Assembly (NCBI GenBank): GCA_015664885.1
Contig: DQPL01000052.1
Coordinates: 1 to 40,250, forward strand
Source: Gemmatimonadota bacterium
Lineage (GTDB): Bacteria; Gemmatimonadota; Gemmatimonadetes; Longimicrobiales; Gaopeijiaceae
Direction: 5' to 3'
Length of the DNA: 40,250 bases
Shown piece by piece: positions 6,352-28,530 of the stretch. Under the pieces are notes generated by a model. It was not told the DNA's origin and did no database searches. It worked only from the letters and a program-made list of their open reading frames with translations. The position numbers were made by a program, and so were the translations under genes. The number at the start of each line of letters is the position of its first letter. Within the stretch, counting starts at the first letter, position 1.

Positions 6352-7748
6352 GCGGGGCCTTCGACGCATGGGCCCTGCCACACGGGGTCGACGCTCCTAC
6401 GCGGTCGAGCCTATCGCTCGTGGGTGGTTCGTCGCAGCTGCGCTACCTCGATTCCGACCCCGACTGGTTGGCGCAGCTGCTCGACGTGCTGGCTGATGCA
6501 CGAGTGGGCCTGCTGGACCGGCGCGCCGGCGATCTGTGCGCGGTGCTCGGCTCGGTCGGCGCGCGCCTGCTCGATCCTCACGACGCGCTGCGCAAGCGGG
6601 CGCTCGAGCACCTACCAGCCGATTCGGGGTTGTCGCCCGAGATGGCCGCTGTGGTTCTGGACGGTATGGCACGGGACTGGACCGAGGACCGGCTGAGGGC
6701 GCTACTCGTCTCGGAGTTCAGAGACGTCGCGTATCTCGATGGATTCGTCGAGCGCGACGGTCGAAGCTCGATGGCGGTGGGTCCAAGGCTTTGCTTTCAG
6801 GTCATCGCGGGTAGCGTGCCCGGCGTCGGGGTATCGGCGCTGATCCGGAGCCTGCTCTTGAAGTCGCCCACGCTGCTCAAGCCCGGTCGCGGTGATTGCG
6901 TGCTGCCGGTCCTCTTCGCCTCAGCACTAGGCGAGGGGGACCCGGAGCTCGCAGCCGCGCTGGCGGTGGTGTATTGGCCCGGCGGCAGCGAGGTGCTCGA
7001 GGGCGTCGCGCTGCAGCGGGCGGACACGGTCGTAGCATACGGAGGCGACGAGAGCGTCGCTGCGCTTCGGAACCGAGTGCCGGTCACGAAGCGATTCGTG
7101 GCGTACCATCATCGCTTCAGCGTTGCCGTCGTGGGGGTGGAGGCGCTCGGTGAGCCTCAGGCCGAGGCATGCGCAGCCGATCTAGCGAATGCGGTGGCGA
7201 TCTTCGACCAACGCGGCTGCGTTTCGCCTCGCGTCGTATACGCCGAGCAGGGCGGGGCAGTCAGCCCGAGGGCGTTGGCGAGATTGCTCGCACGGAGCCT
7301 CGCCGACTTGGAACACACACTACCCAGTGGGGCCCTCGACGGTGCCGAAGCTTCTGCGCTCCACCAGGTCAGGGGGACTGCCGAGTTGTTGGCCGCGTCG
7401 GACTCAGGGGCGGAGGTCCATCATGGCGGTGGAGCCTCGTGGACGGTGATCTTCGATCCGGGGCTTACGGTGCTCGAACCGTGCTTGGGCCGGATGGTCC
7501 AGGTGGTGCCACTCGCCGACGTCGCGCAGCTCCCCGACATATTGGCTGGTTCGGGCGTGCACCTACAGACCGTGGGCATCGCGGGACTCGGAGATCGCGA
7601 GAAAGGACTCGCGTTGCGCCTGGGCCACGCAGGGGTGTCACGAGTCGTACCGCTTGCTGAGGTGCCTTTCCCGCCGCCGTGGTGGCATCACGATGGCGGA
7701 AGCCCGTTGGGAGACCTGATACGGTGGGTCGATCTCGGAGATGGCTGA
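6348..7748 (+). CDS. luxC: LuxC-like acyl-CoA/acyl-protein reductase
   Basis: A 466-residue aldehyde-forming reductase of the LuxC family, related to aldehyde dehydrogenases. It reduces an acyl thioester, formed on its catalytic cysteine, to a fatty aldehyde with NADPH. The nucleophile is Cys291 in FDQRGCVSPR. The core substrate and cofactor region includes GPRLCFQVIAGSVPGVG and LLKSPTLLKPGRGD. The start is the ATG that overlaps the luxE stop by four bases. The open frame extends much further upstream, but that part lies inside luxE and is not family-like. Paired with LuxE it should convert free fatty acids to aldehydes. Without luciferase the product probably feeds lipid, wax, hydrocarbon or pigment chemistry, which is inference. 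Confidence 0.83.
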   Translation: MSGAFDAWALPHGVDAPTRSSLSLVGGSSQLRYLDSDPDWLAQLLDVLADARVGLLDRRAGDLCAVLGSVGARLLDPHDALRKRALEHLPADSGLSPEMAAVVLDGMARDWTEDRLRALLVSEFRDVAYLDGFVERDGRSSMAVGPRLCFQVIAGSVPGVGVSALIRSLLLKSPTLLKPGRGDCVLPVLFASALGEGDPELAAALAVVYWPGGSEVLEGVALQRADTVVAYGGDESVAALRNRVPVTKRFVAYHHRFSVAVVGVEALGEPQAEACAADLANAVAIFDQRGCVSPRVVYAEQGGAVSPRALARLLARSLADLEHTLPSGALDGAEASALHQVRGTAELLAASDSGAEVHHGGGASWTVIFDPGLTVLEPCLGRMVQVVPLADVAQLPDILAGSGVHLQTVGIAGLGDREKGLALRLGHAGVSRVVPLAEVPFPPPWWHHDGGSPLGDLIRWVDLGDG

Positions 7749-13909: not shown

Positions 13910-14985
13910 GCGGCCTCCTCTGGGTCCAACTGCGCGTCCCCACCCACGGCCAACACATCGCCGAAGCCGCTGCCGCCCTCGACACAGACGAGCACGCACG
14001 ACGCCGGATCCACGGGAGGGGAAGGCGCCGGGTTCGTCGGTAGGAAGTCGACGCGAGCCAGAACATCGAGGATGCGCTCGAGTTGACCGGGCCCCTCGCC
14101 GGGCTCGATCACCACATCTCCAGCTGCGAGCGCCACCGGCCTACCTTCGGCGATGGCGCGTGCCGCCAGCGAAGCAGCGACCTCGACCGCTACTTCCGAG
14201 GCGTCTGTCGGCTCTGCTCGCGTATCGAGGCACATCCAGCACGTCTCTGCGCCGTCGCGCTCGTACTCGCGAATGACGGGCTCGCGCAGCCGAGCGGACG
14301 AACGCCAATGGATGTCGCGGGGGTCGTCGCCCGGGCGGTAAGCTCTCAGGCTTCGGTACTCGCCCGTGGTGCCCGCGGCGCCACGCGCCGAAACGCCGAG
14401 CCGAGGTATACGCCCGCCGCCGGGTGACGGTGTGCGCACGGGCCGGTCACAGCGCGGCCACACGACGACTTCGCCGGCGATCTCGATGTCCCGTTGCTTC
14501 AGGAACATGCCGAAGGGGAACGCCGTCGAGAGCGTCACGGTCGACAGCGGGTAGATTCCACGGCGCACGAAACGGTTCGTAGAACGGGCCTCCGCGGTGC
14601 CGCCTGCCGGGACGTGCGCCAGGAATGCGCTTTGCGGCAGGCCCTCCTCGAAGATCTCCACCGTGAGGCTCGGTAGCCACCTCTTGAGGTTGCGCACGTG
14701 GTAGCCCAGTCGCATCGGTTGCCCCACGGTGACCGCCCGCGGAAGGTGTCGTTCGATGCTCAGCTTCCAGATGGCCTGCTCAGAGAGCCAGCCACTCACA
14801 GTGATGAAGCCCAGCATGGAACCGAGCAGCAGGTAGAGCAGGTTGTTGCCCGTGTTCATCGCCGCGAAGCCGACCGCGAGCGCTCCGATCGAGAAGACGA
14901 GCCCGCCGGACGTGAAGCTGATGCGGCGCCAGCCCCGGAGCTTCCGCCACGCCCGCTTGATGTTAGCGAGTAGCGCGGGAATCAC
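13906..14985 (-). CDS. DUF58 domain protein
   Basis: A 359-residue protein with two N-terminal membrane helices (residues about 25-65). A beta-rich domain follows, then the DUF58 signature YRPGDDPRDIHWRSSARLREPVIREYERD around residues 210-240, and a von Willebrand-A-like C-terminal region. It starts with GTG at 14985, overlapping the moxR stop by four bases, and its own stop overlaps the tgpA start. DUF58 proteins are the usual partners of MoxR ATPases and probably present a metal-binding adhesion domain for remodelling by the ATPase; no enzyme activity is known. Family identity is certain, function only by association. Confidence 0.86.
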   Translation of the reverse strand: MIPALLANIKRAWRKLRGWRRISFTSGGLVFSIGALAVGFAAMNTGNNLLYLLLGSMLGFITVSGWLSEQAIWKLSIERHLPRAVTVGQPMRLGYHVRNLKRWLPSLTVEIFEEGLPQSAFLAHVPAGGTAEARSTNRFVRRGIYPLSTVTLSTAFPFGMFLKQRDIEIAGEVVVWPRCDRPVRTPSPGGGRIPRLGVSARGAAGTTGEYRSLRAYRPGDDPRDIHWRSSARLREPVIREYERDGAETCWMCLDTRAEPTDASEVAVEVAASLAARAIAEGRPVALAAGDVVIEPGEGPGQLERILDVLARVDFLPTNPAPSPPVDPASCVLVCVEGGSGFGDVLAVGGDAQLDPEEAA

Positions 14986-15965
14986 ACCGGCGCCTCTACC
15001 TCATCGAGAATCCCCTCCAGTATCCGGGTTGCTTGCTCGTGCGCGTCCAGAGTGGAGCCGGTGGTGCCCGTGGGGAGAATTCGGTGAGCGAGGCACGGCA
15101 CGACGAGCTCACGGACGTCGTCCGGAACGAGGTAGGTGCGGCCCTGGGTGAGCGCGTAGGCCCGGGCCGCACGGGAAAGCTGGATGTTGCCACGCGGGCT
15201 CACGCCCATGCGGAGCTGGGGCGAGGTGCGTGTTTTCTCCACGATCGCCATCAGATAGTCGAGGATGGCCTCGTCGACGTCGACTTCCTCCACACGCTCT
15301 TGCAGCGCGAGCACCTGCGCCGTGGAGAGGACCGTTTGCAGGCGATCCATGACCGGCTCGATCACCGCAGACTCGGTCAGGATGCGCCGCTCGGCCTCGG
15401 GAGCCGGATAGCCGATCGTGATGCGCATCAGGAACCGGTCGAGCTGACTCTCGGGCAGTGGATAGGTGCCATGATGCTCGAGCGGGTTTTGCGTCGCCAT
15501 GACCACGAACGGCTTCGGCAGCTCGTGGGTTTCGCCGTCGATAGTGACACTGCCCTCTTGCATCGCCTCGAGCAGTCCGCTCTGCGTTCGCGGGGGCGCG
15601 CGGTTGATCTCGTCCGCGAGCACCACGTTGGTGAACAGGGGGCCCCGGCGGGTCTCGAACTCGAGCGTCTTGGGGTTATACACGGAAACGCCGAGCACAT
15701 CGGAGGGCAGCAGATCGGCGGTGAACTGGATGCGACGGAAGCCTGCTCCCAGTGTCTTAGCGAGCGCGTGCGCTAGCGTCGTCTTGCCCACACCGGGGAC
15801 GTCCTCGAACAGCACGTGTCCACGCGCCAATACGCAGGCGAGTGCGAGCCGGACGACCTCCCTTTTCCCGTGGAAGACTGTCTCGACTTCGTACACGAGG
15901 TCGTCCAGAAGCTCCAGAGAGGGTTGCGTCGCCCTCGATGGTGGGGGCGCTGTCGTTTCAGGCAT
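14982..15965 (-). CDS. moxR: MoxR-family AAA+ ATPase
   Basis: A 327-residue chaperone-like ATPase. Walker A EDVPGVGKTT is at residues 54-63 and Walker B LADEINRAPP near 116-125. Sensor 1 is in ATQNPLEHHGTYPLPE, and the Arg-containing SPRGNIQLSRAARAYAL occurs in the lid. I start at the ATG at 15965 (MPETTAPP). Frames open back to 16106 are excluded because a likely promoter lies there, although an ATG at 16049 remains possible. MoxR ATPases help fold or insert cofactors or assemble envelope proteins with DUF58 partners, which here follow directly with four-base overlaps. Confidence 0.89.
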   Translation of the reverse strand: MPETTAPPPSRATQPSLELLDDLVYEVETVFHGKREVVRLALACVLARGHVLFEDVPGVGKTTLAHALAKTLGAGFRRIQFTADLLPSDVLGVSVYNPKTLEFETRRGPLFTNVVLADEINRAPPRTQSGLLEAMQEGSVTIDGETHELPKPFVVMATQNPLEHHGTYPLPESQLDRFLMRITIGYPAPEAERRILTESAVIEPVMDRLQTVLSTAQVLALQERVEEVDVDEAILDYLMAIVEKTRTSPQLRMGVSPRGNIQLSRAARAYALTQGRTYLVPDDVRELVVPCLAHRILPTGTTGSTLDAHEQATRILEGILDEVEAPV

Positions 15966-16306
15966 CGAAGTCACGTAGCGTCGTACCGAGTACAGGGCCG
16001 GAAACGGTCCGCCGACCCGCGTTGTCGCGGGCCCAGAGAGAGTCCGCATCGGGGGTGTTCGACCGCCTCGGAAACCAGGCCTGCCGAAGTGGAGAAAGTA
16101 TAACACCCACGCGGAGAAAAAGGTCTCTAAAAAGGTTTTTCAAGGGGGTTTCGACCGTCTTGACCCTACCCCGAGCCTTCCGGTAGCTTTTGGCCGCATT
16201 CAGGGCTTGTTCCGATTTGTCACAAACCGTCGGCGGATCGTAAAAGAGCCCTTCGGCGCCTCTCGTCCCAGGGGCGCTGTGCTTGCCTTCAGGCACAAGG
16301 CTCCGA
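15966..16306. other. divergent intergenic region between moxR and actA
   Basis: A 341-base gap between divergent operons with no protein-like frame. It holds the candidate moxR promoter near 16100, and an A5-GG-T5 palindrome at 16132-16143 in an A/T-rich patch that stands out from the GC-rich surroundings. Before the actA start there is a short inverted repeat (TGCCT-tc-AGGCA, near 16284-16295). An AAGG precedes the actA ATG by about six bases. I see no clear plus-strand promoter; a TTGTCA at 16217-16222 lacks a matching -10. Confidence 0.5.
16097..16105 (-). promoter_or_regulatory. possible extended -10 promoter for moxR operon
   Basis: Read on the minus strand the site is TGTTATACT: a TATACT -10 hexamer (five of six consensus bases) with an upstream TG at the extended -10 spacing. 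There is no good -35 hexamer 17 bases upstream (GACCTT), which fits an extended -10 promoter. Transcription would begin near 16090 and give a leader of about 125 bases before the moxR start at 15965. This is a motif match only. Confidence 0.35.
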
Positions 16307-16921
16307 ATGAAAAAGCATTGGCTCATCGGCGGGCTGGCCGGCGTTTTCGCGCTTGCCGGTCTCGCGTTCGTCCAGGGTGGAGGTGGCGAGGGCGGAGAGG
16401 GAGCCGAGGGTGCGGTCGAGACCGGACAGCCCATCGCGTTCCCCCACAATCAGCATGCCGGCAGCGAGCCAGGGCAGAACAACATGGACTGCCAGTTCTG
16501 CCACTTTTCGGCGGAGCGCTCGGTCGACGCGGGCATCCCGTCCGTCGCGAGCTGCTGGGGATGCCATGTAGCGATTCCTGGCACGAACCATCCGGAAGAG
16601 GTCGCCAAGATCCAGGGGTACCTAGAGCGCGACGAGCCGATCCCCTGGGTGAGGATCTACAAGATCTCGGACCACGCGCACTTCCCGCACATGCGCCATG
16701 TCAATGCGGGCCTCGAGTGCCAGGAGTGCCACGGTGAGATTCAGGAGATGGAAGTGTTGACCAAGCCTGACGAGTGGTGGACTCCGGCCAAAGAATTGTT
16801 CTTCGGACAGGATCCGGTCTGGGGTGGTGACAACATGGGGTGGTGCGTGGAATGCCATCGGCGGCCGGATGAAAACGGCGAGCAGCAGGCGTCCACAGAC
16901 TGTGCCGTCTGCCACTACTAG
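16307..16921 (+). CDS. actA: alternative complex III subunit A, pentahaem cytochrome c
   Basis: A 204-residue membrane-anchored multihaem cytochrome. One N-terminal helix (residues about 4-23) is followed by a glycine/glutamate linker. Five CxxCH haem sites lie at residues 62-66 (CQFCH), 83-87 (CWGCH), 138-142 (CQECH), 180-184 (CVECH) and 199-203 (CAVCH). Five haems and the cluster order identify ActA of alternative complex III, the periplasmic electron outlet that passes electrons to a small cytochrome c or directly to an oxidase. The ATG at 16307 (MKKHWL) is preferred over an in-frame start 8 codons upstream because the hydrophobic anchor follows it at once. First gene of the act operon. 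Confidence 0.94.
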   Translation: MKKHWLIGGLAGVFALAGLAFVQGGGGEGGEGAEGAVETGQPIAFPHNQHAGSEPGQNNMDCQFCHFSAERSVDAGIPSVASCWGCHVAIPGTNHPEEVAKIQGYLERDEPIPWVRIYKISDHAHFPHMRHVNAGLECQECHGEIQEMEVLTKPDEWWTPAKELFFGQDPVWGGDNMGWCVECHRRPDENGEQQASTDCAVCHY

Positions 16922-16936
16922 GCCGAGCCCATAACT

Positions 16937-19900
16937 ATGACTGACGGAATCAAACGCCGCGACTTCCTCAAGGTACTCGGCGTAACGGGCGCGAGCGCGA
17001 CGCTGACCGGCTGCTCGGAACCCGAGCGGCTCCTCCCTTACGTAGTGGCTCCCGAAGAGATCACACCCGGCGTCGCGACCTGGTATACGACGGTTTGTGG
17101 CGGATGCTCCGCGCAGTGCGGCATGTGGGTGCGTACGCGCGAGGGCCGTGCGGTCAAGGTGGAGGGCAACCCCAACCACCCGGTCTCTCGAGGTGGTCTC
17201 TGCTCCAAGGGCCACGCCACGCTGCAGCATCTCTACAACCCGGACCGCTTCCACGGGCCGATGATCCGCGAGGGTGATCGCCTGCGGCAGGGTACCTGGG
17301 ACGAGGCGGAACAGTTGCTCGCCGCACAAATCACGGCGACTGGCAACGTGATGTTCATCGGCGGCCGCATGGGGCCCTCGATGAGCAATCTGGTCGATGA
17401 GTTCGTCGCGGCGGTGAACGGCACGCGCATCGAGTACGACGCGGTGTCCGACGCTCCGCTGCGAGAGGCGGCCCGCATCACGTACGGTGCGACCGGACTA
17501 CCCAGCTACGACATCGCGAACGCACGGCTGCTACTGTCGTTCGGCAACGACTTCATCGAGACCGGTTCCTCACCGGTGGCCCATAATAAGGGCCTCGCGC
17601 AGATGAGCGCGGTGGACGCCGCGGGCTCCAAGGGGCGCTTCGTGTACCTCGGGCCGCGACTCTCGACCACGGGTCTGAACGCGGACGAGTGGTACCCGAT
17701 CCGACCAGGCTCCGAGGCTGCGGTCGCGCTGGGCATGGCTGCTGTGATCGCGGATGATGCCGGAGCGGCAGGCCCCTACGCCGACGTGCTGCGTGCGTAC
17801 AGCCCGGCCGTGGCGGCCCAGGCCGCCGGGGTCAGCGAGGATTCGATCCGTGAGCTCGCGGAGCGCTTCGCTTCCGAGAGCCCGACGCTCGCCATGGGTC
17901 CGGGCGTGGGTGGCCACCACCGGAACGCGACCGCCGCGAACATCGCGGTCATGATCCTCAATCATGTGGCAGGCAACGTCGGTCGTACCGTGCACTACGA
18001 CGCAGCCGTGAGCGCCGCGGCCGGTGCGTACGCGGACATGGAGTCCGCGGTGAGCGCGATGGCCGCCGGCCAGGTTGGCGTCGCGATCGTGCACGGCGCG
18101 AACCCCGCGTACTCGATGCCTGCTGCGTCCGGTTTCGTGGAGGCCTTCAGTCAAGCAGCCTTCAAAGTCTCCTTCGCCTCGGCGATGGACGAGACCGCCG
18201 CTCTGGCCGACCTGATCCTGCCCGACCGTCATTTCCTCGAGGCGTGGGGCGACTCGATGCCTCGCTCCGACGTCGTGGCGCTGCAGCAGCCGGTCATGCA
18301 ACCGGTTCCGCACTTCGACTCCAAGTCAGCCGGAGACGTGCTGCTCGCTACGTCGGTGCATCTGGGCAACGACTTCGGCGCGACGACGTTCTACGACTTC
18401 ATGCGCAATGGCCACATGGAGATGCACGACGACTCCGTGGGTGACTTCGAGACCTCCTGGCGCCTGGCGTTGCGCACCGGTGCGGTCGAGCACGACATGG
18501 GCACGACCGCCGCGCCGTCGCAGCTGCAGGCACCGGAAGTCGCGCTCTCGTTCGACGCTCCGGCGCTCGATCTCGGTGGGGATCTGACGCTGCTGGTGCA
18601 CCCGTCGCCGAGGTTCGGTGGCGGTGAGTTCTCGAACAGCCCGTGGCTGCAGGAGTTGCCGGATCCGGTCTCGAAGATTACGTGGCATTCGTGGCTGGAA
18701 ATGAACGGAACCACCGCGGAGGAGCGCGGCATCCGTGAGGGTGACATCGTCAGGGTGACGTCCCCGCACGGAGAGGTAGAGGTCCCGGTCTGGATCTATC
18801 CCGGCATCCGTGAAGACGCGGTCGCGCTCGCCATGGGTGGTGGGCACACCAACATGGGCCGGTGGGCCAACGGGAGCGGTGTGAACGCCCTGGCATTGTT
18901 ACCGTCCGAGTCCGAGCAGCCGTCTGGTGCGATGCTCACGCTCGCGACGTCGGTCACGGTGACCCCCACCGGTGAACGCCGGCGCATCGCGACCATCGAA
19001 GGGTCGAGCGATCAACACGACCGTCCGATCGCGCCGGCGGTGGCGCTCGCCGACCTGGGACACGTGGAAGAAGCCGAGCACGACGAGGGCCACGCCGAGT
19101 TTCAGGAGCTGCAGGGTGTCGGTGGGTTCGTGCCCGTGCCTTCCGAGGGTGGCGCGGCTACGGCGTTCCCCCTCGAGGGCTCCAGGCACGGTCCATACGC
19201 GGAGTCGCACGATCTTCCGCGCTGGGCGATGGCAATCGACCTCGACAAGTGTACGGGCTGCAGCGCGTGCGTGACCGCGTGCCAAGCTGAGAACAACGTG
19301 CCGTGGGTCGGTGAGGAACAGGTCATGATGGGCCGCGACATGAACTGGGTGCGCATCGAGCGTTACATCGAGCACATGGATGCGACGCAGGCGGGCGACC
19401 TGGACGTGCGCATGTTGCCCATGATCTGCCAGCACTGCGCCAACGCGCCGTGCGAGCCGGTCTGCCCCGTGTTCGCCACGTACCACACACCCGAAGGCGT
19501 GAACGCGCAGATCTACAACCGTTGCGTGGGAACGCGGTACTGTGCGAACAACTGCCCCTACAAGGTGCGGGTGTTCAACTGGTATCGGTACATGGACGAA
19601 AACGTACCGGAGCCCATGAACTGGCAGTGGAACCCGGACGTCACGATTCGTACCAACGGCATCATGGAGAAGTGCAGCTTCTGCATGCAACGCATTCGGG
19701 ATGTCGAGAACCGCGCGGCGTTGGAGGACGGCCGCGCCATCAACGACGGCGAGATCGTACCGGCGTGTGAGCAGAGTTGCCCCGCGGAGGCGATCGTCTT
19801 CGGCAATATCCGTGACGAGAACTCGCGCGTGTCGCAGGTGGTTTCGAGCGAGCGCACGTATCGGGTTCTCGACGAACTCCTCAATACGCAGCCAGCGGTA

Positions 19901-19954
19901 CACTATCTGAGGAAGGTGACGTTCCACGAGATCGCGTCGGGAGGGCACGACTAG
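16937..19954 (+). CDS. actB: alternative complex III subunit B, molybdopterin-oxidoreductase-like plus four-cluster ferredoxin domain
   Basis: A 1005-residue fusion of a molybdoenzyme-like domain (about residues 1-740) and a ferredoxin domain (about 760-1005). The start carries a twin-arginine motif KRRDFLK and a lipobox-like TLTGC at Cys26, so it should be exported by Tat; tatA lies at 37028. The ferredoxin part has 15 cluster cysteines. The third group reads RCVGTRYCANNC, with Thr where a fourth Cys would stand, predicting one [3Fe-4S] and three [4Fe-4S] clusters, the known ActB set. Unusually, the N-terminal domain keeps Cys54, Cys57, Cys61 and Cys89 in the arrangement of a further [4Fe-4S] site. 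Fifteen bases separate it from actA. Confidence 0.93.
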   Translation: MTDGIKRRDFLKVLGVTGASATLTGCSEPERLLPYVVAPEEITPGVATWYTTVCGGCSAQCGMWVRTREGRAVKVEGNPNHPVSRGGLCSKGHATLQHLYNPDRFHGPMIREGDRLRQGTWDEAEQLLAAQITATGNVMFIGGRMGPSMSNLVDEFVAAVNGTRIEYDAVSDAPLREAARITYGATGLPSYDIANARLLLSFGNDFIETGSSPVAHNKGLAQMSAVDAAGSKGRFVYLGPRLSTTGLNADEWYPIRPGSEAAVALGMAAVIADDAGAAGPYADVLRAYSPAVAAQAAGVSEDSIRELAERFASESPTLAMGPGVGGHHRNATAANIAVMILNHVAGNVGRTVHYDAAVSAAAGAYADMESAVSAMAAGQVGVAIVHGANPAYSMPAASGFVEAFSQAAFKVSFASAMDETAALADLILPDRHFLEAWGDSMPRSDVVALQQPVMQPVPHFDSKSAGDVLLATSVHLGNDFGATTFYDFMRNGHMEMHDDSVGDFETSWRLALRTGAVEHDMGTTAAPSQLQAPEVALSFDAPALDLGGDLTLLVHPSPRFGGGEFSNSPWLQELPDPVSKITWHSWLEMNGTTAEERGIREGDIVRVTSPHGEVEVPVWIYPGIREDAVALAMGGGHTNMGRWANGSGVNALALLPSESEQPSGAMLTLATSVTVTPTGERRRIATIEGSSDQHDRPIAPAVALADLGHVEEAEHDEGHAEFQELQGVGGFVPVPSEGGAATAFPLEGSRHGPYAESHDLPRWAMAIDLDKCTGCSACVTACQAENNVPWVGEEQVMMGRDMNWVRIERYIEHMDATQAGDLDVRMLPMICQHCANAPCEPVCPVFATYHTPEGVNAQIYNRCVGTRYCANNCPYKVRVFNWYRYMDENVPEPMNWQWNPDVTIRTNGIMEKCSFCMQRIRDVENRAALEDGRAINDGEIVPACEQSCPAEAIVFGNIRDENSRVSQVVSSERTYRVLDELLNTQPAVHYLRKVTFHEIASGGHD

Positions 19955-21330
19955 TGTCCAACGCGACCAAGGATCCGATCGTGCGGGGAGCGCTGGCCCA
20001 CCCCGACGTCACCAGGCTCGACGACGTAAACCGCGACGTCCTGAAAGTGCTTGCCACGCCAGGAAAGGGTTGGTGGGCACTGTTCTCGCTGGCGTCGCTG
20101 GGACTCGTCGTCTTCTTCACGTCCTGGGGCTGGCAGCTCTATCGAGGCATCGGAGTCACTGGCCTGAACGCGCCCGTAGGGTGGGGCGTCTACATCACGA
20201 CGTTCGTCTTCTGGGTCGGTATCGCGCACTCGGGCACGCTGATCTCGGCGATTTTGTTCCTGTTCCGGGCACCGTGGCGGCAGGCGATCTATCGGGCCGC
20301 CGAGGCCATGACGGTCTTCGCAGTGATGACCGCGGGGCTCTTCCCGCTCATCCACGTCGGCCGCCTCTGGCACGCCTACTGGCTGATCCCGTATCCGAAC
20401 TCCCGATTCCTGTGGCCAAACTTCAAGTCGCCGCTGGTGTGGGATGTGTTCGCGATCACGACGTATTTCACGGTGTCCGCGACGTTCTTCTACCTAGGCA
20501 CGATCCCGGACATCGCGGCTGCGAGAGACCGGGCCACGGGGCTGAGAAAGAAGCTCTACCAGGTGATCTCGATGGGCTGGCGCGGCACCGACCAGCAATG
20601 GCACCACTTCGGCAAGGCGTACATCTTCCTCGCCGCGCTTGCCACACCGCTGGTGCTCTCGGTTCACTCGGTCGTTTCGTGGGACTTCGCGGTGTCGATC
20701 GTACCGGGCTGGCACACGACGATCTTCGCGCCTTACTTCGTCGCTGGAGCCATTTACTCCGGCGTGGCGATGGTGATCACGCTGGTGGTGCCGATCCGGA
20801 AGGTCTTCGGGCTCGAGGCCTACCTCACCACGAAGCACTTCGACGCCATGGCCAAGCTCTGCCTGCTGACGTCGATGATCGTGGGGTACGCTTATATGTC
20901 CGAGTTCTTCATGGCCTGGTACAGCGGTGAGGAAATCGAGCGCACCGCCTTCTGGAACCGACTCTTCGGCACCTATTGGTGGGCGACCTGGATCATGCTC
21001 ACCTGCAACATGTTCGTGCCGATCATGCTGTGGTTCAAACGCGTGCGGTACTCGATTCCCGCGCTGTTCGTGATCTCGATTTTCGTGAACATCGGCATGT
21101 GGTTCGAGCGATACGTCATCGTGGTCACGTCGCTTCACCACGAGTACGAGCCGTTCGCCTGGGGCATCTACCGTCCCTCGCTCACAGAGATGGGGATCCT
21201 GCTCGGTAGTTTCTGTTGGTTCAGCTTCTGGTTTCTGCTCTTCACCAGGCTCCTGCCGCCCATCGCGATCCAAGAGCTCAAGGAAGTGCTGCCGCCGCCG
21301 ATGCGTAAGCAGAAGGAGGCCCACTCATGA
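19954..21330 (+). CDS. actC: alternative complex III subunit C, NrfD-like quinol-binding membrane protein
   Basis: A 458-residue polytopic protein with about ten membrane helices, of the NrfD/PsrC family. As ActC it forms the quinol oxidation site in the membrane beneath the iron-sulfur arm of ActB. The family pattern of His, Asp and Glu residues in the helices is visible, for example GVYITTFVFWVGIAHSGTLISAIL in the second and third helices. It begins with GTG sharing one base with the actB stop (TAGTG), and its stop overlaps the actD start as ATGA. Family and position in the operon make the assignment firm. Confidence 0.93.
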   Translation: MSNATKDPIVRGALAHPDVTRLDDVNRDVLKVLATPGKGWWALFSLASLGLVVFFTSWGWQLYRGIGVTGLNAPVGWGVYITTFVFWVGIAHSGTLISAILFLFRAPWRQAIYRAAEAMTVFAVMTAGLFPLIHVGRLWHAYWLIPYPNSRFLWPNFKSPLVWDVFAITTYFTVSATFFYLGTIPDIAAARDRATGLRKKLYQVISMGWRGTDQQWHHFGKAYIFLAALATPLVLSVHSVVSWDFAVSIVPGWHTTIFAPYFVAGAIYSGVAMVITLVVPIRKVFGLEAYLTTKHFDAMAKLCLLTSMIVGYAYMSEFFMAWYSGEEIERTAFWNRLFGTYWWATWIMLTCNMFVPIMLWFKRVRYSIPALFVISIFVNIGMWFERYVIVVTSLHHEYEPFAWGIYRPSLTEMGILLGSFCWFSFWFLLFTRLLPPIAIQELKEVLPPPMRKQKEAHS

Positions 21331-21851
21331 GTCAAAGTGGAGGGCTTCTCGCTTCGTACGAGTACCTCGACTCGACGGTCGACGCGATCGAGCAGCTCAA
21401 GAAGGCCGGCTTCAAAGGGGTGAAGGCGTATTCACCCTACCCCGATCATCACATTGAGCATGCGCTCGGCTACGACCAGAGCCCGGTTCGGGTATGGACG
21501 CTCGTGGGGGGGCTCACGGGTACAGCGACAGGGTTCGCGTTCACCACCTGGACGTCGGTGGACTGGCCCCTGGTGGTTGGCGGCAAACCCATCGTCTCGA
21601 TTCCGGCCTACATCATCATCGCGTTCGAGTTGACCATTCTCTTCGGCGCTCTTGCGACCTTGATCGGCCTGTTCATTCTCAGTCGCCTGCCCGACCTGCG
21701 ACCAGCCGTGGTCTACGATCCCGAGTTCACGGCCGGGCGCTATGGCGTGTACGTGCAGGCCGAGGGCGGTCGCCTCGACGAAGCGAGAAATATCCTGAAC
21801 GGGCAGGAGCCTATCGAGCTCCGTGAGGGAGAAGGAGGGGCCAATGTTTAG
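21327..21851 (+). CDS. actD: alternative complex III subunit D (DUF3341)
   Basis: A 174-residue DUF3341 protein. An N-terminal soluble ferredoxin-like part (residues 1-55; LLASYEYLDSTVDAIEQLKKAGFKGVKAYSPYPDHHIEHAL) is followed by two membrane helices at about 58-80 and 92-122, and a short cytoplasmic tail. ActD is a structural membrane subunit without cofactors. It overlaps actC by four bases, and its last codons overlap the actE start. The spacing of these overlaps shows that actC-D-E-F are translated as a coupled unit. Confidence 0.92.
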   Translation: MSQSGGLLASYEYLDSTVDAIEQLKKAGFKGVKAYSPYPDHHIEHALGYDQSPVRVWTLVGGLTGTATGFAFTTWTSVDWPLVVGGKPIVSIPAYIIIAFELTILFGALATLIGLFILSRLPDLRPAVVYDPEFTAGRYGVYVQAEGGRLDEARNILNGQEPIELREGEGGANV

Positions 21852-22479
21852 GTTCCGGTTCGCTCGCCCGCTCGTTGCGGCGCTCGCGCTCATCACGCTG
21901 GGAGGCTGTAAGCCACTCGATGATGTCGCGGTCCTGGTCTTCGGGCGCAGCATGCGGAATCAGCGCTCGTTCGATCCGTACGAGAACCCGCGAGGAGCGC
22001 CCGAGAACTCGGTGGCATTCGCGTCGGGCAACTACCCAGCCGCGCCAGGCGAGGTCAACCTCGGCCAGCCGGAAGGCGTTGACGTGCCGCGGTTCACTCA
22101 ACTCGATCTGGGTACGCCCGGCGTAGGCAACGAGGTGATTCAGGGGCTCGTGAACCCGATGGATCCCAATGACGCGGTGTCGATGGCGCGTGGTGAAGAG
22201 ATCTACATGCGGTTCTGCGTGGTATGCCACGGCCCCGATGGGGTCGGCGCCAACGCCTACATCGCGGATAAGCATCCATTGCTTCCGGCCTACAACGTTT
22301 CCGGGGAGACCGTTGCTGCGTATAGCGACCAGTACCTCTACGCGATAATGCGTGTCGGGCGCGGGCTCATGCCCGAGTACGGCAGCCGCATCACGCATTT
22401 CGACCGCTGGAGTGTCGTGAACTACGTCAGGCAGCTGCAACGACAGGCGGGTAACACGCCTGCCGGGGGTGACGAGTAG
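21844..22479 (+). CDS. actE: alternative complex III subunit E, lipid-anchored monohaem cytochrome c
   Basis: A 211-residue lipoprotein cytochrome. The signal ends in a lipobox TLGGC with Cys22, so it is probably anchored in the outer face of the inner membrane. A single haem site CVVCH is at residues 125-129 in the family context RGEEIYMRFCVVCHGPDGVG, and Met in GRGLMPEYG is the likely axial ligand. ActE is the second cytochrome subunit of the complex beside pentahaem ActA. The start is the ATG at 21844, inside the 3' end of actD; the frame is open seven codons further, but the signal peptide fits this start. Confidence 0.92.
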   Translation: MFRFRFARPLVAALALITLGGCKPLDDVAVLVFGRSMRNQRSFDPYENPRGAPENSVAFASGNYPAAPGEVNLGQPEGVDVPRFTQLDLGTPGVGNEVIQGLVNPMDPNDAVSMARGEEIYMRFCVVCHGPDGVGANAYIADKHPLLPAYNVSGETVAAYSDQYLYAIMRVGRGLMPEYGSRITHFDRWSVVNYVRQLQRQAGNTPAGGDE

Positions 22480-23781
22480 ATGGCCAACATCGACATCCCC
22501 TCCGAAGTCCCGGTTCGTTACCTGCCGCGTTCGAGGAATGCTTCGACATTGATCGGGGCCCTCTTCTTCGTCGGTCTCGCGGCGTTCGTGATTCGGCTCA
22601 GGCAGGACCCCGACTCTGCGTGGATCAGCTACGTCTCGAACTGGCTGTATTTCACGAGCATTTCGATCGGAGGCGTGCTTTTCGCTTTTGTGACGTGGAT
22701 CACCAAGGCCAAGTGGAACTGGTCGATGCGCCGCGTCAGCCAGTCGTTCGCGGCGTTCCTGCCGATTTCGTTCGTATTGCTGCTGCCGATGCTGCTCTTT
22801 CTCCGGGAGGACTACTTCCCGTGGATCGAGATGATGGCGACCGATGCGATCGTCCAAGAGAAGGCGGCTTACCTGAATATACCGTTCCTGGTGGCCCGGA
22901 ATCTCGTGGCCGTACTTCTGCTCTTCGGCATGGCGCTGTACTTCGTGTACCACGCCGTGCGCCCGGACATGGGGCTCACGAGGGGCGCCGACGGGGGTGA
23001 CCCAGCACGGGAGGCGTGGCGCGAGCGCCTCACCCAGGGCTGGATGGGTCAGGAGCAGGAGGAGGTCAACAGCTACAAGCGCATGACCACGATCGCTCCG
23101 GCGTTCGTCATCGTATACGCGCTCGTCATGAGCATCATCGTGTACGACTGGGTGATGACGCTCGAACCGCACTGGTACAGCACGATGATCGGTCCGTGGT
23201 TCTTCATGGGCGCGTTCTGGGGCGGAATCGCGTCCACCGCGCTGTGGAGCCTGTACCTGCGCACGCAGGACAAGGAATTCAAGAACCACATTGGGCTGCA
23301 GCAGAGGCACGACATCGGCAAGCTGGCCTTCGCCTTTAGCGTGTTCTGGACCTACCTGTTCTTCGGTCAGTACCTCGTGATCTGGTACGGCAAGCTACCG
23401 TGGGAGCAGGCGTGGATGGTGCGTCGCTCGGACCCAGAGTCTTGGGGGCCCTACTCGCTGCTCGTGATCGTGATGTGCTTCGTGATCCCGTTCGCAGGGC
23501 TGCTGGGGCGGAAGCCCAAGATGAAGCCGAAGTTGTTGGCCTTCTTCACTTCGGTGATCGTGATCGGACTCTGGTTGGAACGCTACGGCATGATGGCTCC
23601 TTCGCTGTGGCACGAGGGTGATCCGATCTTCACGATCTGGCAGCCGCTGATTGGGTGCATGTTCCTGGGGCTGTACTTGGGGGCCGTGCGGTGGTTCTTG
23701 ACCACGTTCCCGGCGATGCAGATTTGGCAGCCCATGGGGGATCCGGAGACTATTGAGGTTGAGTTAGCGGCTGCGGAGTAA
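22480..23781 (+). CDS. actF: alternative complex III subunit F, NrfD-like membrane protein
   Basis: A 433-residue integral membrane protein with about ten helices, the second NrfD-like subunit of the complex and structurally related to ActC. It begins on the base after the actE stop. Helix-rich blocks such as APAFVIVYALVMSIIVYDWVMTLEPHW and FAFSVFWTYLFFGQYLVIWYGKLP are diagnostic for ActF. The operon ends here: in many bacteria an oxidase (cox) cluster follows, but here the next coding sequence is a broken recombinase 374 bases away. Electrons from the complex therefore go to an oxidase encoded elsewhere. Confidence 0.92.
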   Translation: MANIDIPSEVPVRYLPRSRNASTLIGALFFVGLAAFVIRLRQDPDSAWISYVSNWLYFTSISIGGVLFAFVTWITKAKWNWSMRRVSQSFAAFLPISFVLLLPMLLFLREDYFPWIEMMATDAIVQEKAAYLNIPFLVARNLVAVLLLFGMALYFVYHAVRPDMGLTRGADGGDPAREAWRERLTQGWMGQEQEEVNSYKRMTTIAPAFVIVYALVMSIIVYDWVMTLEPHWYSTMIGPWFFMGAFWGGIASTALWSLYLRTQDKEFKNHIGLQQRHDIGKLAFAFSVFWTYLFFGQYLVIWYGKLPWEQAWMVRRSDPESWGPYSLLVIVMCFVIPFAGLLGRKPKMKPKLLAFFTSVIVIGLWLERYGMMAPSLWHEGDPIFTIWQPLIGCMFLGLYLGAVRWFLTTFPAMQIWQPMGDPETIEVELAAAE

Positions 23782-24154
23782 AGGGACCGCCGGGCAGGGG
23801 GGACCGCCGCGCGGGCTCTACTCGCCGCGCTCCGGCTGAAGCGGGTTGTTCCGGGGGTGCTGGCGGTGGGCGCTTGGGTCTGGGTTCCCGGGGGGCTGAG
23901 GCTCCTGCGCGGGAATCCGCTCGCTGCGCTCGCCCGGAGGCCGGCTTCGCCGGACTCCGTTTCCCGTCTTCGTCGCCTGTTCGCGGGTTATGCCTGCGCG
24001 CTCTGAGCAGAACCCACACGTCGGTCCCGGTACCAGGTTTCCTTGTTTGAGGGACTTGGCGGGTAGGTGTTTCCCTACCAATTGGCTCACGATCGGGGCT
24101 GGTGGCTGATCTGGGTATTCGCGGGCCCCCGGGGGGTGGCTAGCGTGGGGTACG
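23782..24154. other. intergenic region between actF and the recombinase
   Basis: 373 bases with no credible gene. It contains the strong nested hairpin at 23910-23966 (listed separately), a six-base inverted repeat GGTAGG/CCTACC at 24062-24079, and a run of G and C around 24120-24140. It lies just upstream of the tyrosine recombinase and is compositionally similar to the repeat-rich DNA on the other side of that gene. Confidence 0.5.
23910..23966 (+). terminator. nested inverted repeat, possible act-operon terminator
   Basis: The inner hairpin pairs CGGAG-g-CCGGC with GCCGG-a-CTCCG around a TTC loop (23935-23959), ten base pairs with one G/A mismatch, followed by TTT. An outer pair CGGGAA (23910-23915) and TTCCCG (23961-23966) encloses it. 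The inner stem plus T-rich end could terminate the act operon 150 bases after actF. The outer arms make it look more like a structured repeat of the kind seen after the recombinase. Confidence 0.45.
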
Positions 24155-25035
24155 ATGCATGCGAAGACCCGAGCGACGCTGCCTGACTGGTTGTGGGAGC
24201 TGTTGCAGCGGCTGGACGACGAGCTGGTGCTGCGTGGATGCGTGCGACAGACACGGTCGCCTTACTCTGCCCACGTGAGACGGTTCTATGCCGGGAGACC
24301 GCGTACGGATCCTGTGGCCAAGGACGGGGAGGTCCGCTCCTGGATGCTGGATATGCTCCGGTCGGGATTGTCGCACAGCTATGCCAACCAGGCGCTGAGT
24401 GCCCTCGGGTTCCTGCACAGGCATGTCCTGAATGCGCCCGCCCCGGTGGCCGACATCCCGCGGCCAAAACGCGAGAAACGACTGCCCAAGATTCTCAGCG
24501 AGCCCGAGGTGCGTCGGTTTCTGGATGAGCTCGGATCTCCGAAGCACCGGGCGATCGCGTTCATTCTGTACTCCGCGGGGCTGCGGGTCGGTGAAGCCGC
24601 ACGGCTGCAGGTGGAGGACGTCGATTCTCAGCGAGGACAGATCCATGTGCGACAGGGGAAGGGGGGCAAAGACCGTTATGCCATCCTGTCGTCCGTGGTA
24701 CTCGCGGTCTTGAGGGAGTACGCCGCGTGGATCGACCCGTGCATTGGCTCTTCCCTGGCGGCCACAGACCGGACCGACACATCACCACCAGAAGCATCCA
24801 AAGGCAGGTTTCGCGGGCCGGGAAGAGAGCCGGCATTCAGAAGCGGGTCACACCGCAAATGTTGCGACACAGCTTTGCGACCCACCTCCTGGAGGGTGGA
24901 ACGGACCTGAAGAGCATCCAGGAACTACTTGGACACGAGAAGATCCCCACGACCGTCATCTACACCCACATGGCCCAGCGTAATCTCCGGAAGGTCAAGA
25001 GTCCGATCGACCGGCTCTTTGAGGACAAGAAGTAG
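24155..25035 (+). pseudogene. tyrosine recombinase (XerC/D-like integrase), frameshifted
   Basis: The N-terminal part (24155 to about 24728) has a SAM-like core-binding domain, then [13 protein letters not shown] with the first catalytic Arg and QGKGGKDRY with the catalytic Lys. The C-terminal part continues in another frame from about 24727: [31 protein letters not shown] (His, Arg), [10 protein letters not shown] (His) and VIYTHM (nucleophile Tyr). Joined, they make a normal protein of about 293 residues with every catalytic residue. The switch near 24722-24735 behaves like the loss of one base. It lacks the extra IntI domain, so it is not a classical integron integrase. It ends in KVKSPIDRL, typical of a recombinase family widespread in environmental bacteria. 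Either inactivated or a sequencing error. Confidence 0.85.
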
Positions 25036-25037
25036 GG

Positions 25038-25118
25038 GTCGTGGCACGATACCACGACAACAATCCCCATTCGCGACAGAGTTCGTGATAGCCCCTCTTT
25101 CGCGAAACGTCGCGATTG
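25038..25118. repeat. palindrome-rich hairpin block after the recombinase
   Basis: A perfect inverted repeat GTCGTGG-n7-CCACGAC (25038-25058) starts just after the recombinase stop. It is followed by a hairpin at 25070-25106, in which TTCGCGA-c-AGAG pairs with CTCT-t-TCGCGAA (11 pairs, one mismatch, 13-base loop). CCAC and AATC upstream can also pair with GATTGTGG at 25111-25118, giving an outer stem with a bulge. The hairpin could be the recombinase gene's terminator, but there is no T-tract; it resembles the outer-stem, bulge, TCGCGA-stem plan of the two elements further on. Confidence 0.55.
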
Positions 25119-25187
25119 TGGCCGGCCGGCCCGATCGGCGATAGGGTTCGTGAAGTTGTCCGTTGGGCGACATTTGTGATAGCGGCC

Positions 25188-25256
25188 GTGCAGCAGAATC
25201 GCGAGGCGTTAGATAGCGCCGCTATTTTCGCGGCCCGAACAGGCCCCTTCTGCTGC
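25188..25256. repeat. structured repeat element, copy 1
   Basis: The 5' arm has GTGCAGCAGAATCGCGAG then GCGTTAG (25188-25212), repeated with 23 of 25 bases at 26414-26438. GCAGCAGAA (25190-25198) is a perfect inverted repeat of TTCTGCTGC (25248-25256). Inside, CGCGA pairs with TCGCG of the 3' arm and TAGC with GCTA. The 3' arm carries an extra GGCC-n6-GGCC hairpin. Copy 2 keeps the outer stem by a compensatory change. The element lies at the left edge of the methyltransferase cassette. Confidence 0.75.
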
Positions 25257-25336
25257 CGGCCTTTGATCTGCGTCGGGGCTTACTCGCCTGACAGGCTTCC
25301 GCCGACTCGCTGCGGTGTGGTCGCGGACATCGCGGG

Positions 25337-25864
25337 CTACACGACCCGGCCGCCCTGGTACATCCTCGTTCCGTTCTGGGTCGTGTGTAGCAACAAGCGA
25401 GCGTCTTCGCGGCCGTGGCAGAGCATGAGGTCGAGCATCATCGGCTCCTCCCCCATCCACGGGAAGGCGTAGACGACGTCGAAGTCGTGTAGCGCACGCC
25501 CTAGCTCCAAGTAGCCCGACGGCCCTCGGCCGATAGTTCCGTGGCGACCATCCCCGCCGGAGAGCCTCCATTCCCATCCCATCGGAACGAAGCTCCCCGC
25601 GGCGAACCGCGCGTTCGAACGCCATCGCGAGGCGAGCTCCCGCCCCACGTCGACGAGAGACGAGTCGAGCTCGATACCGCAGGAATCGAAGCCGAGCAAG
25701 TCCGCCATGATCGTGATGACGCCCGTGGCCGATCCCCACTCGAGGAACCGGAGACCCGGTCTGCGAAGAGAAACGAGCGTGGCCCGGACAGCGTCGTAGT
25801 CGGCGGCCACGAACGGGTGCCAGTCGTCTTGGCGGACCTCCGCGTCGAAGCGGTGCCAGAACAC
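25337..25864 (-). CDS. class I SAM-dependent methyltransferase-like protein
   Basis: A 175-residue protein with a Rossmann-type motif I FLEWGSATGVITIMADLLG and an acidic end of strand 2, SCGIELDSSLVDVGREL, which together bind S-adenosylmethionine. Later strands include HDFDVVYAFPWMG and ARLLLHTTQNGT. The start is GTG 25864, chosen because AGGAGG stands five bases before it. The frame stays open upstream without a start codon and reads family-like residues (RKLGTRIDALCEEG), hinting at an older, longer N-terminus. Substrate unknown. It follows the 58-residue gene on the minus strand with a 64-base gap, and both lie between the two structured repeats. The domain is clear by motif; activity is inference. 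Confidence 0.72.
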   Translation of the reverse strand: MFWHRFDAEVRQDDWHPFVAADYDAVRATLVSLRRPGLRFLEWGSATGVITIMADLLGFDSCGIELDSSLVDVGRELASRWRSNARFAAGSFVPMGWEWRLSGGDGRHGTIGRGPSGYLELGRALHDFDVVYAFPWMGEEPMMLDLMLCHGREDARLLLHTTQNGTRMYQGGRVV

Positions 25865-25928
25865 ACGACCCTCCTCGCACAGCGCATCGATGCGTGTGCC
25901 GAGCTTCCGGTCGAGGGCGGGCTCTTCG

Positions 25929-26105
25929 TCAGCCGCGATCGAGCGGTTCCGACTCGGGCGGGGTCTTGTCTGCGACTTCGCCGCTCTCGGGTGCTGAGCT
26001 AGCTGCCCCTTCGCGGCGGCGGCGTTCGGCCTTCTCCTGATTCTTCTTCTGCTTCCTTAGCTCCCGCTGCTTCTTCTCGAAGCCGTAGTTGGTGCGTCGC
26101 GCCAC
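25929..26105 (-). CDS. small basic conserved protein, 58 residues
   Basis: Found by reading the minus strand: GTG at 26105, with GGAGGA four bases upstream, opens a frame of 58 codons ending in TGA at 25929. The protein begins VARRTNYGFEKKQRELRKQK, continues with alternating Lys, Arg, Glu and Gln as one long charged helix to about residue 35, and ends in an acidic proline-rich tail. The RRTNYGFEKRQ-type opening recurs in small proteins of many soil and marine bacteria, as far as I recall; no function is known. Its basic helix suggests nucleic-acid or ribosome contact, which is inference. It precedes the methyltransferase gene and may be cotranscribed. Confidence 0.68.
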   Translation of the reverse strand: MARRTNYGFEKKQRELRKQKKNQEKAERRRREGAASSAPESGEVADKTPPESEPLDRG

Positions 26106-26413
26106 TGTTCCTCCGGATGCATTCGACTCGCGCCCTCCCGATTGGAGCCGCGCGATTTTGGACTGAAGGGGTCCCGCGGGCTGCGTTTCGGCGGGGAGGG
26201 CGCTCGTCGTCGAGGCCCTCTGAATGTACCTCCTTCACCAGTGAAGCTAGCGAATCACGTTCGAGAGGTCGCTTGGCTCGGCGGTCGGTACAGGCGCGAA
26301 CGATCCCGATTGGACCAGTGGAGGCCCCTCGATCGGTCTGTCCTCCGGTGGCCCCGGTAGCGCGCCTGATCACAAGCGACTCATCCAGCTGCCTCAGAGG
26401 CGGGCGTGCCCTG

Positions 26414-26533
26414 GTGCATCAGAATCGCGAGACGTTAGGAAAGCCAGTGTTTGACAATCGGGTAGGGCGGCGATTCCGCATAACGCCGGACTCAAGCTCT
26501 CGCCTAGGACGCTTTTCGCGAGCAGGCTGATGC
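26414..26533. repeat. structured repeat element, copy 2
   Basis: The 5' arm has GTGCATCAGAATCGCGAG then ACGTTAG (26414-26438). GCATCAG (26416-26422) is a perfect inverted repeat of CTGATGC (26527-26533). Compared with copy 1, G has become T in the 5' arm and C has become A in the 3' arm, so pairing is kept. Inner stems follow: TCGCGA with TCGCGA, CGT with ACG, and TAGG with CCTA, with bulges mainly on the 3' arm. Both copies have TTTTCGCG in the 3' arm. The loop between the arms is longer than in copy 1. Confidence 0.75.
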
Positions 26534-26555
26534 GACGTACCCTAAGCAACGGCTC

Positions 26556-26631
26556 GGCCGCTGCGCGGCCACTCCGGTGACGCCTGTCACCGTCACCTCC
26601 GCGTCGTGAGTCCCTTGTCCGTTATCGGACA
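26556..26631. repeat. three tandem perfect hairpins
   Basis: GGCCGC-tgc-GCGGCC (26556-26570), CGGTGAC-gcct-GTCACCG (26575-26592) and TGTCCG-ttat-CGGACA (26616-26631): stems of six, seven and six pairs without a mismatch and loops of three or four bases, within 76 bases. There is no T-tract after any of them. They could belong to a non-coding RNA or a recombination site. Confidence 0.6.
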
Positions 26632-26947: not shown

Positions 26948-27688
26948 ATGGATGCGACCGGGCGGAACGTGACGACGGACGACGATGAACTAATCTCGGA
27001 GCAGGTAGCGTACTACCGAGCCAGGGCCCCTGAATACGACGACTGGTTTCTTCGTCGAGGGGGATACGATCAGGGTCCGGATCACTCGAAACGGTGGGTC
27101 GCGGAGATCGACATGCTGCTCGCCGAACTCGATCGCGTTGAGTGGGGCGAATCGGTCTTGGAGTTCGCACCCGGAACTGGCTGGTGGACTGCCGAGCTAG
27201 CGAAACGCGTCGAGTCCGTTATGGCGGTCGACAGCGCTCCAGAGGTCCTGACTCTGAATCAGGATCGTGTCGGCAGCCGAAACGTCGAATACGTGCAAGC
27301 CGATATCTTCGACTGGGGTCCTGGGCGCAGGTATGACGCAGTCTTCTTTTCTTTCTGGCTGTCTCATGTGCCTCCGAGTCGCTTCGAAGAATTCTGGAGT
27401 CTCGTCGGACGATGTGTACGCCCGGGCGGGACTGTCTTCTTCATCGACACCCAGCGACACGCCGAGTACCAATGGTCGGACGGCAAAAGGGTCGGCAACG
27501 CACCGGGTTCCAGGGATCACAGAGTCACCCGCGAACTAAGCGACGGTCGGAGATTCGACATCGTGAAGGTCTTCTACCACCCTCGGGAGCTCTTGGCGCG
27601 CCTCGAGGAGCTGGGTTGGGAGGGGGAAGTGTCGGAGACTCCAGAGTTCTTCTTGTGGGGGAAGGTCCACCACTCGAGGACGAGCTGA
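26948..27688 (+). CDS. class I SAM-dependent methyltransferase
   Basis: A 246-residue cytosolic methyltransferase. Motif I reads VLEFAPGTGWWT with Glu72, acidic Asp95 of MAVDSAPEVL contacts the ribose, and the motif II/post II region reads YDAVFFSFWLSHVP. An N-terminal segment (EQVAYYRARAPEYDDWFLRRGGYDQGP) is typical of small-molecule or quinone-like methyltransferases in this family. The ATG at 26948 has only a weak upstream ribosome site. The stop is two bases before the next start, so it is coupled to the dioxygenase. Substrate not predictable from sequence. Confidence 0.82.
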   Translation: MDATGRNVTTDDDELISEQVAYYRARAPEYDDWFLRRGGYDQGPDHSKRWVAEIDMLLAELDRVEWGESVLEFAPGTGWWTAELAKRVESVMAVDSAPEVLTLNQDRVGSRNVEYVQADIFDWGPGRRYDAVFFSFWLSHVPPSRFEEFWSLVGRCVRPGGTVFFIDTQRHAEYQWSDGKRVGNAPGSRDHRVTRELSDGRRFDIVKVFYHPRELLARLEELGWEGEVSETPEFFLWGKVHHSRTS

Positions 27689-27690
27689 CC

Positions 27691-28530
27691 ATGCGCCATG
27701 CTGACGACGTGCCCAGCGAGGGTCGGCTCGATCCTGCTGCGTTGGAAGACTATTTGCGCGATGGGGCCGTGTGTCTCCGTGGACTGTTCAGCAAGGCACA
27801 AATTGCCGACCTGGCACAGGGGATTGAGGAGAACCTGAGCGATCCCAGTCCCCTGGCGCAGGTCGCCAGTGATCCGGACGATCCAGGCTGGTTCTTCGAG
27901 GATTTTTGTAACTGGCAGGTGAACGACGCCTATCGTCGATTGATTTTCGAGTCCGGCGTCGCCGGTGTCGCGGCGCAGTTGATGCAAAGCTACGAAGCAC
28001 GCCTGTACCATGACCACCTGTTGGTCAAGGAGCCCGGCACTCGCCAGCGCACGCCCTGGCATCAGGACCAGCCCTACTACAATGTGGACGGCCGGCAAAA
28101 CGTCAGCATGTGGTTACCTGTGGACCCGGTTTCCCGGGGGGCGACCCTGGAGTTCGTGGCTGGTTCTCACCTAGGCCCCTGGTTAATGCCCCGCACGTTC
28201 TTGAAAAACGAAGCCAAGTGGTTCCCGGAGGGCAGCCTGGCGGATCTTCCGGACATCGATGCCAACCGAGACGACTACGACATTATTGGGTGGGCACTGG
28301 AACCCGGTGACGCGGTGTTCTTCAACATGCTCACGCTGCACGCCTCCGCCGGCGTTAGCGGTTCGCACCGGCGCCGTGCCTTCTCGGTGCGCTTCCTGGG
28401 TGATGACATGACCCATGCGCCACGACCGTGGACGACTTCACCGCCGTTCCCTGGCCTAGAGAATGAGCTGGCCGCAGGCGTTCCCATGCACCATGTGCTG
28501 TTCCCCTTGTTGAACCAAGCCAGACCGTAG
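27691..28530 (+). CDS. phytanoyl-CoA dioxygenase (PhyH) family Fe(II)/2-oxoglutarate oxygenase
   Basis: A 279-residue oxygenase. The iron ligands are visible as His124 and Asp126 in TPWHQDQPYY and His217 in LTLHASAG. An arginine-rich segment a dozen residues later (SHRRRAFSVRF) would hold 2-oxoglutarate. FLKNEAKWFPEGS and EPGDAVFFNMLTLH are typical for the PhyH family, which hydroxylates small molecules or lipids. I start at ATG 27691, two bases after the methyltransferase stop; the frame is open far upstream, but that portion is out of register with family sequence. The pair suggests a two-step tailoring (hydroxylation and methylation) of one unknown metabolite, which is inference. Confidence 0.86.
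   Translation: MRHADDVPSEGRLDPAALEDYLRDGAVCLRGLFSKAQIADLAQGIEENLSDPSPLAQVASDPDDPGWFFEDFCNWQVNDAYRRLIFESGVAGVAAQLMQSYEARLYHDHLLVKEPGTRQRTPWHQDQPYYNVDGRQNVSMWLPVDPVSRGATLEFVAGSHLGPWLMPRTFLKNEAKWFPEGSLADLPDIDANRDDYDIIGWALEPGDAVFFNMLTLHASAGVSGSHRRRAFSVRFLGDDMTHAPRPWTTSPPFPGLENELAAGVPMHHVLFPLLNQARP

Follow-up and report, generated by a model that had tools for sequence, protein, structure and literature searches.

Two near-identical 25-mers lie on either side of a short segment next to a tyrosine recombinase gene in a 40,250-nt stretch of Gemmatimonadota DNA (the window), raising the question of what kind of recombination site they represent and which enzyme acts on them. In the initial annotation they were read as folded recombination sites of a class distinct from classical attC, each pairing with an arm downstream of it and together bounding a cassette of an integron-like system. 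Comparison confirmed that the copies, at 25188–25212 and 26414–26438, agree in 23 of 25 bases, and the inverted 7-mers on which the proposed fold was based (GCAGCAG with CTGCTGC, GCATCAG with CTGATGC) are present in the sequence. The search for further copies suggested at that stage, conducted in the window's own 3.96-Mb genome (G000, a metagenome assembly of 136 contigs), returned 10 matches at three or fewer mismatches versus 0 for a reversed-pattern control; these are grouped on few contigs, several of them close to contig ends, and sit at gene boundaries near recombinases. An Rfam search gave no match.

That the 25-mer pairs with a downstream arm, as a separate class of folded site, was suggested by the presence of such an arm at both window copies and by the strong downstream fold of copy 1 (z −3.1, reached by 0 of 200 shuffles). 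This explanation is highly improbable, as CTGCTGC or CTGATGC occurs within 130 nt downstream in only 3 of 11 genomic copies, i.e. both window copies and one more, the arm being missing from eight of the nine copies outside the window, and as the conserved pairing is with upstream sequence. The copy 2 downstream fold is no better than shuffles (z 0.04), and on this evidence, together with the absence of the arm from most other copies, the downstream-arm hairpin was rejected as the element. The downstream arm of copy 2 (26526–26532) sits within a different attC site, described below as A-type, and CTGATG of this arm is kept in the sister species, which has no 5' arm there. Complete copies of the 25-mer form the right half of a 100–119-bp palindrome, GCCTAACAAGCGATTGCTGCAG...GCGCAGCAGAATCGCGAGACG^TTAGGC. 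Across 12 such sites (B-type), 88.6% of cells are paired over 17 pairs, versus 17–38% with slid partners, and their alignment contains four pairs with changes on both sides, one of them in window copy 2, where a G-to-T change at alignment column 98 lies opposite a C-to-A change at column 18 to give an A–T pair. The compensatory change reported for the two copies therefore exists, but its partner is the upstream arm rather than the downstream arm.

Classical attC sites have the anatomy RYYYAAC ... GTTRRRY, and the palindrome shares it. GTTAG lies at the outer right end, as in an ordinary attC with an upstream left half, and so no new class of site is involved; the copies are ordinary attC halves. 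The initial annotation is thus partly confirmed, in that the observation was real, the sites are of a folded type belonging to an integron-like system and the stretch between the copies is one cassette, while the secondary structure had been misread.

Three further observations concern the copies and their pairing. Pairing of copy 1 with 25106–25117 was taken as incidental, that stretch being attI sequence kept in a relative of the same genus (G001). The strong hairpin at 25185–25260, a 13-bp pairing of copy 1 with its downstream arm (z −3.1), may be the remains of the left half of another attC (GAACAGGCCCCTTCTGCTGC). Elsewhere in the genome, near position 7722 of locus L019 (G000 contig C73), a small zinc-ribbon ORF takes its 3' end and its stop codon from a B-type right half that has no left half.

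The best reading of the region surrounding the copies is a decayed integron-like platform, comprising a frameshifted integrase without the IntI patch (hereafter patch-less), an attI and cassette remnants with two kinds of attC, as follows:

24155–25035, + strand: patch-less integron-type tyrosine recombinase, with a frameshift near 24720, reading 24155–24724 and then 24727–25032
25036–25162, + strand: putative attI region, with crossover TTGTCCG^TT at 25162/25163 placed by alignment; synteny with G001 stops at 25164
25163–25208, + strand: 46-nt cassette remnant by junction positions, its end being a B-type attC right half
25188–25212, + strand: copy 1, the right half (L'–R') of a B-type attC with no convincing left half
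25209–26434, no strand assigned: a single 1226-bp cassette running G^TT to G^TT, delimited by a B-type right half on each side
25337–25966, − strand: cassette gene, class I methyltransferase-like by eye from its translation (LEWGSATGVITIMADLLGFDSCGIELDSSL), start uncertain
26366–26441, + strand: B-type attC, with a degenerate left half at 26370–26388 and copy 2 (26414–26438) as its right half
26435–26621, + strand: mini-cassette by junction positions, nearly all attC
26478–26627, + strand: A-type attC (GCATAACGCCGGACTCA ... TGAGTCCCTTGTCCG^TTATCG), the type that follows the patch-less integrase on its 3' side in G001; fold z −2.5

The attC of copy 1 lacks a convincing left half, and that of copy 2 has a degenerate one. 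In the junction alignment none of the window's cassette units keeps an end mirroring its own start, and the array is therefore considered decayed or scrambled. The TTGTCCGTT of the putative attI recurs at 26615, at the end of the A-type attC. For the cassette gene at 25337–25966, the ORFs tested gave no Pfam or NCBIfam match. Beyond the array, a methyltransferase gene and a phytanoyl-CoA dioxygenase gene (26948–28530) are candidate cassette cargo or chromosome.

The tyrosine recombinase noted beside the copies was recovered at 24155–25035 and matches Pfam PF00589 and PF13495. At its frameshift the gene has one base fewer than the intact, 82%-identical copy in G001. Its match to the integron integrase model TIGR02249 is restricted to two blocks (1–177 and 235–315), and the protein lacks approximately 40 residues, among them the IntI "patch" or I2 domain. 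The spacing from KG.KDR to HxLRH is 63–69 residues in intact patch-less relatives versus 106–108 in canonical IntI of the same class, and 13 residues of the patch-less protein face 54 in VchIntIA (2A3V). The missing segment includes I2-region residues that contact the extrahelical base, as listed in PMC3053210. A predicted model of the copy from Rufibacter (pLDDT 86, good locally, with a loose domain arrangement) has no helix at the patch position, and a structure search with it ranked XerA and 2A3V together. In the tree, 21 canonical IntI proteins form one clade (100/100) separate from the patch-less proteins, the patch-less integrase is apart from the other two Xer-type genes of the genome, and an IS91-linked sub-clade (99/94) is apart from the array-bearing patch-less members. 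Patch-less proteins, which make up a widespread integrase family, score under the NCBIfam cut-offs of both the integron integrase (TIGR02249) and Xer models, and on their own profile reach at least 215 bits versus at most 199 bits for Xer proteins. A first scan of genome contigs with a single recombinase protein found no relatives. Absence of the patch is shown by alignment, tree and predicted fold.

The relative G001 is 85% identical to the window and syntenic over 14809–25164, with homology ending at TTGTCCG^TT, for which reason that point was taken as attI. At the corresponding position it has an intact recombinase gene, with 11 or more cassettes behind it and A-type attC repeated 3' of the gene. 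G001 also encodes a canonical IntI, which is followed on its 3' side by B-type attC sites. As the window copies are B-type like these, they are regarded as IntI-system sites inside a patch-less integrase platform, and the best explanation is that B-type sites belong to the genus's canonical IntI system and A-type sites to the patch-less integrase. An array lying 3' of the gene was rejected as a distinguishing mark, since the same arrangement can occur with canonical IntI of this bacterial class, and the case for long terminal repeats as exclusive to the patch-less type was weakened, some B-type cassettes having them too. The B-type identity of the window sites also raises the alternative that the locus is canonical-IntI debris, either a CALIN (a cluster of attC sites with no integron integrase) or an array cut by contig breaks, with the patch-less recombinase a mere neighbour. 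CALINs are common (PMC8618304), and an IntI could be missing from the 136-contig assembly of G000.

The arrays of other genomes bear against debris. In G001 and in G029 and G005, which represent two other genera, a run of approximately 120–165-bp repeats starts 3' of the patch-less integrase with no comparable run 5', and the distance from the end of the gene to the inferred attI junction is 151 nt in G001, 187 nt in G005 and 408 nt in G029. No canonical IntI over the cut-off was found in G005, a single-contig complete genome, or in G029. In every array, complementarity between the opening 16 nt of a cassette and R'' of that cassette's own attC exceeds that of permuted pairings (G001 118/154 vs 67.7±7.1; G029 126/168 vs 66.7±7.9; Rufibacter 104/154 vs 54.7±6.3), most weakly in G005, where the value was reached by 46 of 20,000 permutations; the mobile unit is therefore G^TT to G^TT. 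A structural scan pairing R'' with R' of the same junction found almost nothing; in the arrays R'' is complementary to the start of its own cassette and not of the next one. One 451-bp cassette is present twice in G005 with exact G^TT edges and only the G shared on the left, and 33 of 41 longest ORFs in the cassettes of the relatives are in array direction. Also in G005 (L065, L082), one array site at 4835–5009 of the 3' flank has its left arm inverted relative to its neighbours. Nine patch-less loci from the same bacterial class have 5 kb or more of 3' flank and lack an IS91 partner; of these, three had arrays, two had just two units and four were repeat-free, the latter six counting against a patch-less integron; repeats were found beside 0 of 14 Xer controls. 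Metagenome contigs frequently stop shortly after the patch-less gene, a pattern consistent with repeats at that point but also one that hides them.

Similar arrays occur in Bacteroidota. Patch-less integrases in isolates of Rufibacter, Mediterranea, Algibacter and Seonamhaeicola are followed 3' by 13, 12, 10 and 7 repeats, respectively, and those of Winogradskyella and a Flavobacteriaceae isolate by three each. IntI exceeded the cut-off in none of the eight Bacteroidota genomes with a patch-less integrase (these six isolates, Flavobacterium aciduliphilum and a Bacteroidetes MAG). Across all genomes compared, lack of IntI is firm only for the complete genome G005 and, to a lesser degree, for isolates. 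Covariation is seen in the Rufibacter L stem (90% paired vs 24–39% slid), and all 11 of its 11 cassettes have one main ORF in array direction. Given A-type arrays beginning immediately downstream of the patch-less gene in several genera, genomes of two phyla without canonical IntI and Xer controls without repeats, the debris explanation is quite unlikely. The sequences themselves show the sites, arrays, exact cassette units, adjacency to the integrase, lack of a patch and lack of canonical IntI in several of these genomes.

The neighbourhood of the copies leads to what looks like a patch-less integron variant. Our main reading, to which we assign a probability of roughly 70%, is a patch-less integron lineage, the window holding a decayed platform of it in which ordinary IntI-type sites are intermixed. 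Against it stand, besides the repeat-free and two-unit loci, the lack of array evidence for the IS91-linked members of the same wider family, the frameshift in the window integrase, the window units without mirrored ends, and the presence of other Xer-type recombinases in every genome, which could act on attC-like sites. Under the patch-less integron reading, the intact integrase of the relatives would most likely behave like an integron integrase: it would join cassettes to attI at G^TT, use attC sites in the form of folded hairpins, and so capture, excise and shuffle single-gene cassettes. It would do so without the I2 or patch, which IntI uses to read extrahelical bases, and in some attC sites, those of Rufibacter, the L stem shows no evident extrahelical base; unequal hairpin-arm spacers or a fixed terminal-repeat mismatch may replace that signal. 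We infer recombination by the patch-less enzyme, the folded single-stranded substrate and the way of strand choice from sequence. A recurring A:C mismatch occupies base 10 of the cassette terminal repeat in different phyla (9 of 11 cassettes in G001, locus L060; 4 of 7 in G005, L065; 9 of 11 in Rufibacter, L138) and is possibly a strand-choice signal.

The patch-less integrase might alternatively recombine double-stranded cassette ends in an Xer- or Cre-like manner, with the terminal inverted repeats serving as binding arms and no folding. The enzyme has no I2 domain, archaeal XerA and IntI are jointly the solved structures nearest to it, and the terminal repeats reach approximately 14 bp, the length of a usual tyrosine-recombinase site arm. 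However, the terminal repeat is complementary within one cassette only, different cassettes sharing little beyond the conserved inner arm, and the covarying L stems favour pairing between two arms of one site, leaving this mechanism unlikely, if still a serious contender. Whether the arrays amount to a second integron lineage in at least two phyla, in which a patch-less integrase recombines folded sites and the patch is dispensable, reflecting either a pre-patch state or parallel evolution, we consider evenly balanced.

The IntI-specific domain is reportedly necessary for activity, as Messier and Roy are said to have found in 2001. Published surveys recognise integrons by this domain (PMC9668308; PMC2426708), and gain of I2 has been proposed as the step enabling folded-site recombination (Escudero et al. 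2016, PMC4792948). No description of a patch-less integron integrase was found in the open-access papers searched, which is no proof of novelty. If the reading is true, the role of I2 gain in the origin of integrons would become directly testable, some arrays 'without integrase' could be explained, and an overlooked cassette pool would be added in Bacteroidota, a phylum with very few complete integrons according to IntegronFinder 2.0 (PMC9024848).

With canonical integrons the systems described here share a tyrosine integrase beside attI (from the synteny break at G^TT and the inferred junctions), single-gene cassettes with palindromic attC ends and G^TT crossover, cassette starts complementary to their own R'' and, in this class, arrays 3' of the gene. 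B-type, A-type and Rufibacter sites are all imperfect palindromes with an AAC/GTT core and L boxes, and single-gene cassette arrays are present in the relatives and as remnants only in the window. They differ in that neither the window gene nor its intact relatives have the additional IntI domain or I2 patch, and in their separate tree branch. XerA, XerC and XerD, acting on dif, share the domain plan and sequence, the best solved match being archaeal XerA 4A8E; in contrast to a single chromosomal recombinase, however, patch-less integrases are multi-copy, linked to cassette arrays, separate in the tree and end in an IntI-like SP(L/I)D motif. IS91-linked tyrosine recombinases belong to the same wider patch-less family (42–45% identity) but form their own sub-clade, adjoin an IS91-type transposase and have no attC-type array seen; no such transposase lies beside the array-bearing copies L030, L035 and L036 or the window copy. 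IS91-paired patch-less recombinases occur in many phyla (L051, L052, L058, L059, L067, L047, L117, L121, L129, L133, L139, L143 and L144). As IntegronFinder demands the IntI domain (PMC9668308), patch-less arrays would be expected to be filed as CALIN, if their attC sites are detected at all; they differ from CALIN in that an integrase of another type heads the array.
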